This document shows positions 36,471 to 39,401 of a DNA stretch of 39,401 nt, in pieces. Made by a program: the position numbers and the translations under genes. Position 1 is the stretch's first letter. Each line of letters opens with the position of its first letter. Under the pieces are notes generated by a model. That model was given only the letters and a program-made list of their open reading frames with translations. It had not been told where the DNA came from and ran no database searches. The stretch comes from Clostridia bacterium DTU084 (lineage in GTDB: Bacteria; Bacillota; DTU084), in contig LFTB01000023.1 in the NCBI GenBank assembly GCA_001512905.1, positions 595-39,995 on the forward strand. The letters run 5' to 3'.

Positions 36471-37400
36471 TTATCCGCTGAGAGAAATTCCGCTCCTCTG
36501 CGAAAGGGTCTGTTTGAACCCATCCAAACTCTCAGCTCTCAGGCTAGAGCGAAAGAGTTCCTCGAGAGTTTGTTCGTCCTGTATCTTTTTTATCTGCATT
36601 CTTATGTCCTTATCCGTACTGCCGAACCTTTCTTGCAGAATTTCTACTATGGTATCCTGTTTGTTTTCTCGAATGCCTTCAATTCTGCCTTCAATTTTTC
36701 CTTCTTTTCGAGCCTTATTCAGTAAATACTCGGTCACAGAATTTTTTTCACTGAGTATTTAGTCGAGTATTTGAAGCATTTGGATATCCTCCTTTGGGAG
36801 CTCTGAGATGTCCAAATACCTGCCGGCTAATGCCGCAGCTATGGCAAGCTGCGCATCCCGTTTTTCCGGATCAGCCTCTAGTTTTTTGATCAATGCCTTC
36901 GTTTCCCTGTACACATCCAAGCTTTTCTCCTCTGTCAGCAGTATGAGGACGGGCGCAAGGCCCGGCAGTTCGCCCTTTCTTATTCTGGGCAGGTGTTCCC
37001 ACAAGCGGACTACCGAATACGTGAAAGTGTGGCTGAGGTTGAACTGGGTTTTCTGGTATGCGTTGGGCGGAGGGAGCTGCCTCTTTCTTTCCAGGTATAT
37101 GATCACTGAATAAGTCGGCAGCCTCAGCGAGGCTTCGATCAGGGCGTTGTATTGGAACATCCGCTGAGGGAGATCCTTTCTGTGTTCCAGCTGAAATTCC
37201 AGGTGAAGGACAAATCTTTTCGTCCCCTGCTCAACTATATATATGTTGTCAGCTCGAAGCTGGGGAATATTCAACTCCTTGTCTTCGTGGTGAATTCTCA
37301 GAGGTTCTGAGGAGTTCAAAACAAGTTTCAGGAAATCTTCAGAGTAATTCCGGGCAAGATACTTAAAATTCAAATCCAAAGATGCTTTCTCTGCGGACAT
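36471..37400 (-). pseudogene. Rpn-family recombination-promoting nuclease/putative transposase, interrupted by one in-frame TAA at 36759-36761
   Basis: N-part FKYLARNYSEDFLKLVL, FVLHLEFQLEHRKDLPQRMFQYNALIEASLRLPTYSVIIYL; C-part SVTEYLLNKARKEGKIEGRIEGIRENKQDTIVEILQERFG; both ORFs in the same frame (930 nt total). Confidence 0.85.
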
Positions 37401-37830: not shown

Positions 37831-38316
37831 ATGAAAAAGATTGTGTTTTTAGCAATGCTGCTTTGTCTCAGTTTGGCAGCCAGCGTCTTTGCAGAGCCTG
37901 CCCAGCCAAAGAACGTGGCTGTGGACGTGCTGGTAGTTGACACCCAGGAATTGATTGCCAACGATCCCACAATAACCATTCCCACACCAACAGCGGCCAA
38001 CTACAATGCAGGGTACACAGATGTCGTCACAGGACAGCTTGTCGTCAGAAGCAATGTCCGCTGGGTGCTCAGTGTGAAAACAGAATCATGGGGCAGCCCT
38101 TCGGGTGTCAACAAAGCTTTAACTGATTGGCAGTGGAAGCGGCAGATGCAGGATCAGTTTACAGAGTGCAGCACAGCTGATGTCAAGGTGGTGGACGGCC
38201 TTCCCACATCCGGTACAAATGTCAATATCAATTACCGGATGAAACTGGATTGGGAAAACGATGCGCCAGGCAGCTACTACTTAGTCCAATATTACACTCT
38301 GACCAAAGACAGCTAA
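37831..38316 (+). CDS. Secreted beta-sandwich-like protein (possible surface-fibre subunit)
   Basis: Signal peptide MKKIVFLAMLLCLSLAASVFA; beta-rich; shares NxGY..L.V....W.L.V..E pattern with the truncated ORF at 39198. Confidence 0.75.
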   Translation: MKKIVFLAMLLCLSLAASVFAEPAQPKNVAVDVLVVDTQELIANDPTITIPTPTAANYNAGYTDVVTGQLVVRSNVRWVLSVKTESWGSPSGVNKALTDWQWKRQMQDQFTECSTADVKVVDGLPTSGTNVNINYRMKLDWENDAPGSYYLVQYYTLTKDS

Positions 38317-38329
38317 TTTTTCTGAGTTA

Positions 38330-38373
38330 AAAAAGGGGCCACTGCCGGGAAGCTTATGCTTCTTGCCCCTTTT
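38330..38373 (+). terminator. Hairpin with T-tract between subunit-like and chaperone-like genes
   Basis: AAAAAGGGGC ... GAAGC-TTAT-GCTTC ... GCCCCTTTTCTTTTT. Confidence 0.75.
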
Positions 38374-38397
38374 CTTTTTAGGGGAAGGAGGGAAACA

Positions 38398-39201
38398 TTG
38401 AAAACCTGTATCTATGCTCTGTGCATTCTCTTTTGTTTCACCAGTTTGACAAGTGCCTTTGTCCAGTGCTCCATCGAGGACCGGGTGGTTAAACTCAGAC
38501 CTGGTGAGAGGGGCCAGCTTGAGATCGAGCTCTATAACCCAGAGGCAGAACAAAGAACCGTCCGCGCCTACCTCGGGGATTGGGAACTGGGAACTGGAGG
38601 CGAACCAGTGTTTCATCCAGCCGGCACCTTGCCTAATTCTGCAGCAGGACAGCTGAAACTTGCAGATCCCCTTGTGGTCTTAGGGCCAGGGGAGAGGGGC
38701 AAGCTGCGCCTGGAGGTGGAAGTGCCAAAGGAGCAGCGCGGCAGCAGAGCTGCCATGCTGTTTGTGGAAGCTGGCCAACTTCCTCCCCCAACCTCAGCTC
38801 TTGAGAACCAAATGCAAATCAGCGTCCAGACCCTCCTGCGCTACGGGATTAAAATTTACGTTGTGGCCCAGGGAACGGAGGAACCAGCCTCTAAGATCAA
38901 CGATCTAAGGCTCCAGCCTCCATCAGAGGGGAAAATCCCAGTAAACATTGTCCTTCAGAACAGCGGCAATATCCATCTCCGCTATCAGTGCAGGCTTGAG
39001 GTGCGCTCTTTAGAGGGAGAAGTACTGGAAGAAAAAGAGCTTGCTCCCTTTTCGATTCTGCCAGGTGCTGTCCGCACGGTGCAAAGCGAGATCAAACTGC
39101 CTCCTTTCGGCAAATACCTGCTTTTGGCTGTGCTGGATTACGGCAGCGAGAAGCTGCTCGCAGCTGAGGCACCCTTTGAGATAAGGGAGGGAGGTAAGTG
39201 A
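38398..39201 (+). CDS. PapD/DUF916-like secreted chaperone-type protein
   Basis: TTG start after GGAAGGAGGG; signal peptide KTCIYALCILFCFTSLTSA; VKLRPGERGQLEIELYNPEAEQRTVRAYLGDWELGTGGEPVFHPAGTLPNSAAGQLKLADPLVVLGPGERGKLRLEVEVP..AAMLFVE. Confidence 0.65.
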   Translation: MKTCIYALCILFCFTSLTSAFVQCSIEDRVVKLRPGERGQLEIELYNPEAEQRTVRAYLGDWELGTGGEPVFHPAGTLPNSAAGQLKLADPLVVLGPGERGKLRLEVEVPKEQRGSRAAMLFVEAGQLPPPTSALENQMQISVQTLLRYGIKIYVVAQGTEEPASKINDLRLQPPSEGKIPVNIVLQNSGNIHLRYQCRLEVRSLEGEVLEEKELAPFSILPGAVRTVQSEIKLPPFGKYLLLAVLDYGSEKLLAAEAPFEIREGGK

Positions 39202-39401
39202 AAAGCAAACTCCCATTGCTGCTTTGCATCTTGGGACTTTTGGCCGGCAGCGCAAGCGCTCTGTCCCTCGAGGTGGAGAGCACGGCAAATTTCGTCCAGA
39301 GCACAGCAGCAGACTTAAACCGCGGCTACGTGGAACTTCCCGCAGCCACAAGGCTCACCATTGAAGGGGACGAGCCATGGCAGCTGTACGTCCGTGCAGA
39401 G
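39198..39401 (+). CDS. Secreted protein, 5' part only (truncated by window end), paralogue-like to 37831 product
   Basis: GTG start after GGGAGGGAGG, overlapping previous CDS; signal peptide KSKLPLLLCILGLLAGSASA; ADLNRGYVELPAATRLTIEGDEPWQLYVRAE. Confidence 0.7.
   Translation, partial: MKSKLPLLLCILGLLAGSASALSLEVESTANFVQSTAADLNRGYVELPAATRLTIEGDEPWQLYVRAE

Follow-up and report, generated by a model that had tools for sequence, protein, structure and literature searches.

Chaperone-usher pili (classical FimC/FimD, archaic CsuC/CsuD, and the alternative EcpB/EcpC and CfaA) rely on a PapD-fold chaperone, on subunits that are small and secreted, and on a large partner rich in beta structure; their range is given in a review as Proteobacteria, Cyanobacteria and Deinococcus-Thermus (PMC4654587). 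The WxL/WxLIP systems of monoderm Bacillota (DUF916-DUF3324) likewise have this chaperone fold, together with short subunits that carry W-x-L-like motifs. Surveys of diderm Firmicutes leave ushers unmentioned (PMC5007114, PMC4793230), and a 2023 article on WxLIP mentions neither chaperones nor ushers (PMC10599100). A full-text literature search, outside the scope of which many subscription papers fell, turned up no paper that describes chaperone-usher loci in diderm Bacillota, Limnochordia and Halanaerobiales included.

Here we analyze a locus at the end of a 39,401-nucleotide stretch of DNA from Clostridia bacterium DTU084 (C67:595-39995, the window), where the contig also ends. We believe that it is probably a chaperone-usher-type surface-fiber system of a two-membraned bacterium, in which fiber assembly is inferred. 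The locus resembles both described systems in its chaperone and subunits; however, its large partner differs from that of chaperone-usher pili in having a NEW3-type Ig N-terminus and an SdrD_B/carboxypeptidase-type C-terminus, with no plug and no detectable barrel homology. It differs from WxL/WxLIP systems in that it has no C-terminal membrane segment on the chaperone, lies in a genome without a PF06030 match, belongs to a diderm and is linked to a barrel-like partner. Nearer relatives, referred to here as type I systems, share with the window type (type II) a homologous chaperone and the gene order subunits-chaperone-large partner, but N-terminal, barrel and plug regions of the usher kind are recognized in type I partners alone; the sister-clade partners resemble those of chaperone-usher pili in their plug, their barrel and a pair of C-terminal beta domains.

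Results

Gene content of the locus

A first-pass annotation, made from the window alone, had described three consecutive secreted ORFs at this place, and all three are present on the plus strand with signal-peptide-like starts (Table 1). The mechanical ORF call begins the chaperone gene at 38356 and is longer than the TTG reading; the TTG at 38398, behind AAGGAGGG, is most likely the start. At the other end of this gene, the stop is overlapped by the start of subunit 2. The stem-loop that follows subunit 1 scored as a terminator-like site, and we infer that it is a possible attenuator. A similar hairpin lies at the same place in a paralogous locus of the genome (L005:11358-11412), with a z score of only -0.99, and a stem-loop in both copies possibly keeps the chaperone and the partner at lower levels than subunit 1. 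Farther upstream, on the minus strand (36471-37400), two adjacent ORFs resemble by eye a split Rpn/PD-(D/E)XK-type transposase-family protein.

Table 1. Genes and elements of the locus (window coordinates unless another contig is named).
Feature	Position	Strand	Description
Subunit 1	37831..38316	+	ORF, 161 aa; signal peptide, beta-rich body
Stem-loop, then T-run	38330..38380	+	Between subunit 1 and chaperone; fold -21.1 kcal/mol, z -2.75
Shine-Dalgarno-like AAGGAGGG	38385..38392	+	Precedes chaperone TTG start; from sequence
Two-domain Ig periplasmic chaperone, PapD/WxLIP-like (predicted)	38398..39201	+	267 aa, TTG start
Subunit 2, N-terminal 68 aa	39198..39401	+	GTG start, runs off the window
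Subunit 2, remainder	C19, L006:11967-12284	minus	Placed via contig overlap

The two subunits are homologous

The relatedness of the two flanking proteins, suggested earlier from a short shared motif, extends beyond that motif and across most of their length (35/115 positions identical, 46.6 bits, vs. 21.6 bits for the best of 200 shuffles). Subunit 1 has an N-terminal stretch of alternating hydrophobics (NVAVDVLVV) and ends in the amphipathic strand APGSYYLVQYYTL. Many putative subunits start with alternating hydrophobic stretches, and the C-terminal amphipathic strand motif recurs in 66/108 putative subunits near chaperones, compared with 6/138 among other ORFs and 8% among shuffles. Note that this pattern was chosen after some of the sequences had been seen, and the contrast is somewhat flattering. 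Judged from sequence, with no subunit structure at hand, these ends would fit Ig domains that stop at strand F and bring an N-terminal donor strand; this is not proof, and donor-strand complementation remains an inference. Homology to FimA-type pilins was considered and dropped: the match (E 4.1e-6) was obtained with signal peptides and was gone without them.

A divergent chaperone with a predicted PapD fold

The protein between the subunits had been called PapD/DUF916-like, and its AF2 model (pLDDT 88.5) matches proteins of both kinds in the PDB: the best match is a DUF916-type protein, the Enterococcus faecium WxLIP (9i25, E 3.9e-12), followed by the PapD-type chaperones FimC, CfaA and CsuC (E about 1e-8). 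In a profile-profile comparison (hhalign), the chaperone family aligned with nine E. coli chaperones over 216 columns (E 7.4e-11; 7.6e-8 without signal peptides). A ten-member profile found EcpB in the PDB (5dfk, E 0.001), while the lone EcpC sequence did not match the family. Pfam (PapD_N) and NCBIfam (fimbrial assembly chaperone) matched the window chaperone below threshold only. As modeled, the window chaperone is a two-domain PapD fold, divergent enough to be missed by standard family models. The xRPGExx...DW...GTLPxSA layout singled out in the first-pass annotation is conserved in its relatives. There is no C-terminal membrane segment: in the model, the final strand of domain 2 is followed by only five residues, and the sole hydrophobic helix is the signal peptide.

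The review cited above (PMC4654587) calls a proline of D1 invariant in the chaperone-usher superfamily (Pro59 in CsuC, Pro60 in EcpB). It is absent at the aligned position of the window chaperone, where D90 stands with P91 adjoining, and present in 38/43 family members (13/18 of the window clade and 25/25 of the others). For archaic and alternative chaperones, the same review places the carboxylate anchor Arg89 in strand F1; R117 of the window chaperone lies near this position, with a shift of about 1-3 residues in the EcpB alignment. Chaperone-like stretches of ~500-650 aa in several genomes (G199, G174, G147, G049 and others) contain the two-domain unit twice in tandem.

A paralogous locus and an inferred contig join

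The end of another contig of this genome, C19, overlaps the window contig by 103 bases, 101 of them identical (two mismatches), and contig C128 carries a complete paralogous four-gene locus in the order subunit 1, chaperone, subunit 2, partner. Because of this overlap, and because the complete paralogous locus has the same order, we infer that C67 and C19 join. Read in reverse, C19 then supplies the rest of subunit 2, a secreted protein of 827 aa (L006:9483-11963, minus strand), and two genes that we take, from a reading of their sequence, to be SbcD- and SbcC-like. Between the two loci the partners are 58% and the chaperones 60% identical, and the two first subunits are homologous (E 1.6e-49). 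The subunit 2 frame of C128 is broken (L005:10108-10530, minus strand), by decay or by sequencing error.

The chaperone and its partner are linked across many genomes

Beforehand, the proposal had been made to depend on a conserved neighborhood in relatives, and such a neighborhood is found in dozens of loci from many genomes. The chaperone profile matches 75/398 genomes of the phylum, some of the weaker matches being longer tandem-domain proteins. A large SdrD_B-ended protein adjoins the chaperone or sits a few genes off in almost every extended locus, including 36/37 loci of the named collection. These loci are from Limnochordia-type MAGs, a Hydrogenispora MAG, Halanaerobiales/Halobacteroidaceae and Chlorobi, and further from a cyanobacterium, Acidobacteria (Geothrix), UASB270 and Vreelandella. 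For the window-type partner itself, 24 of the 27 strong matches in the phylum share their contig with a family chaperone that lies no more than about 4 kb away, a count that includes one case (C19) through the contig join. In Vreelandella azerica, the chaperone gene of a related locus is interrupted by transposase-like ORFs (L144:9875-11910).

In the chaperone tree, type II chaperones (with eight others) are split from those of type I and a Chlorobi-type group at an SH-aLRT of 99. This split follows the type of partner, and therefore chaperone type and partner type go together. The chaperones of the two clades are homologous (hhalign E 8e-52). The type I set comprised L024-L031, L064-L071 and L108-L144, minus the window-type loci.

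Partners of the sister clade are predicted ushers

The sister chaperone clade comes from Limnochordia-type Bacillota, Halanaerobiales, Chlorobi, a cyanobacterium and others. When partners were clustered without their C-terminal domains, the partner kinds separated. Compared with E. coli ushers by hhalign, type I partners matched over 265 columns (E 3.8e-6) and the Chlorobi-type group over 316 columns (E 3.9e-9), the matched stretch being the pre-plug region and the plug; against LptD, FhuA, BamA and PgaA, the same method gave neither group a match. One type I member (L108:10777-13578) was modeled with AF2 at pLDDT 86.4: a plug-like domain is inserted after the first six strands, another 24 strands follow, and a pair of beta domains makes up the C-terminus. 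In the PDB this model is matched best by FimD and PapC, with E values as low as 7.8e-27, while unrelated barrels begin at about 1e-8. From profile matches and this model, we conclude that type I partners are real ushers missed by Pfam; across the 398 genomes of the phylum, the Pfam Usher model gave no match at cut-off and a single one below threshold, to a type I member.

These proteins vary in build. Type I models contain 30 barrel strands vs. the 24 known in FimD/PapC (a model count only), and several type I ushers have a copper-amine-oxidase-N-like N-terminal domain. In some Halanaerobiales loci (L126, L128, L130 and L132), two consecutive usher-like proteins follow one chaperone.

The 827-aa partner of the window locus

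The first-pass annotation expected further components, an usher among them, beyond the window. A component is indeed there, the 827-aa partner just past the contig end, but its likeness to an usher is confined to its place in the locus and its general architecture; a demonstrable usher homolog exists in the sister clade, whereas no usher homology is detectable in the window clade. The partner is made up of a pair of N-terminal NEW3-like Ig domains, an aromatic-rich beta middle of ~390 residues, and C-terminal SdrD_B and carboxypeptidase-regulatory domains that are common to sister-clade ushers, with which it also shares its operon position. Comparison of type II partners with ushers and with type I partners, in local and global modes, found nothing outside the C-terminal domains, and no plug was found; a single-protein scan of the genome contigs with the 827-aa protein returned no relatives.

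Aromatic residues make up 14% of the partner middle, vs. 6-7% in soluble Ig proteins; among reference barrels they make up 12-16% in FimD, LptD, FhuA and BamA, and 6% in PgaA. We regard this content as only weak support for a barrel. The middle is also strongly alternating, but alternation alone is not diagnostic and was rejected as a barrel sign, since the soluble chaperone also scores high (z 3.9). In the absence of a predicted structure, a diverged barrel is not excluded. The best reading of the window-type subclass is a platform that lacks a plug or has diverged beyond recognition.

Cell envelope of the source organism

We take the source group to be Limnochordia-like Bacillota. The genome encodes BamA/Omp85 (PF01103, E 6.7e-37), and an outer membrane is therefore expected. 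With BamA in the genome, the label 'Firmicute' given in the first-pass annotation needs to read 'diderm Bacillota'. LptD was not found in this genome, but the model used is insensitive and fails on several diderm controls as well. Electron microscopy shows cultivated Limnochordia to be diderm, with filamentous envelope structures of unknown make (PMC11456536).

Discussion

We propose that two homologous beta-rich subunits would be exported to the periplasm, where the PapD-like chaperone would cap both; it probably does so by supplying a strand to an Ig fold that goes no further than strand F. Capped subunits would then pass to the 827-aa protein, which is probably an outer-membrane beta-barrel platform and would be laid out as N-terminal Ig-like domains, a barrel and two C-terminal beta-sandwich domains. 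The subunits would be threaded through this platform and polymerized via donor-strand exchange. The pore role of the window-type partner, the polymerization step and the fiber as its product are all inferred.

The main rival is a WxL-like surface complex that does not polymerize: a WxLIP (DUF916)-like adaptor would stay on the surface and bind small proteins, with the 827-aa protein as anchor or adhesin. It draws on the chaperone model, whose best PDB match is a WxLIP and not a pilus chaperone, on weak WxLIP_PGBD matches in 6/10 relatives, and on W-x-L-like motifs and a C-terminal YTL strand in the subunits. We nevertheless think it improbable, given that no PF06030 match above cut-off was obtained in the organism's own genome, that the chaperone ends after two Ig domains with no membrane segment to follow, that the organism has BamA, and that the same chaperone family is paired with true ushers in sister-clade loci. 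The 827-aa protein could instead be a secreted multi-domain stalk or adhesin without a pore, the real outer-membrane platform being encoded elsewhere; no usher homology was detected outside its C-terminal domains, and adhesins, too, often contain SdrD_B and carboxypeptidase-regulatory domains. Against this stand the aromatic-rich, strongly alternating middle and the operon position and C-terminal domains that it has in common with sister-clade ushers, and we lend this alternative very little credence. That unrelated secreted Ig-like proteins lie together by chance might be entertained on the grounds that Ig-like folds are common and match widely; this, however, is already refuted by the conserved linkage, and since the genome holds a paralogous copy, dozens of loci keep the linkage and the chaperone tree agrees with partner type, we see next to nothing left of it.

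A chaperone-usher-type system remains our preferred reading of the locus. A bolder version, which we hold to be possible but rather unlikely, is that the window type forms a separate class with the same chaperone superfamily and an outer-membrane platform that is non-usher or plug-less, and that the WxL systems of monoderms descended from a chaperone-usher system. Such a descent, following loss of the outer membrane, would be suggested by the intermediate position of the chaperone relative to WxLIP and PapD chaperones.

With a branch in diderm Bacillota, Halanaerobiales and Chlorobi, chaperone-usher systems would reach beyond the range given for them so far, and the loci of this branch offer candidates for surface appendages of Limnochordia-type bacteria. 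If it is true that the window-type partner works without a plug, this would bear on which parts of an usher are essential. The branch also makes it testable whether a chaperone-usher-like system survives as a relic in the WxL surface proteins of monoderm Bacillota.
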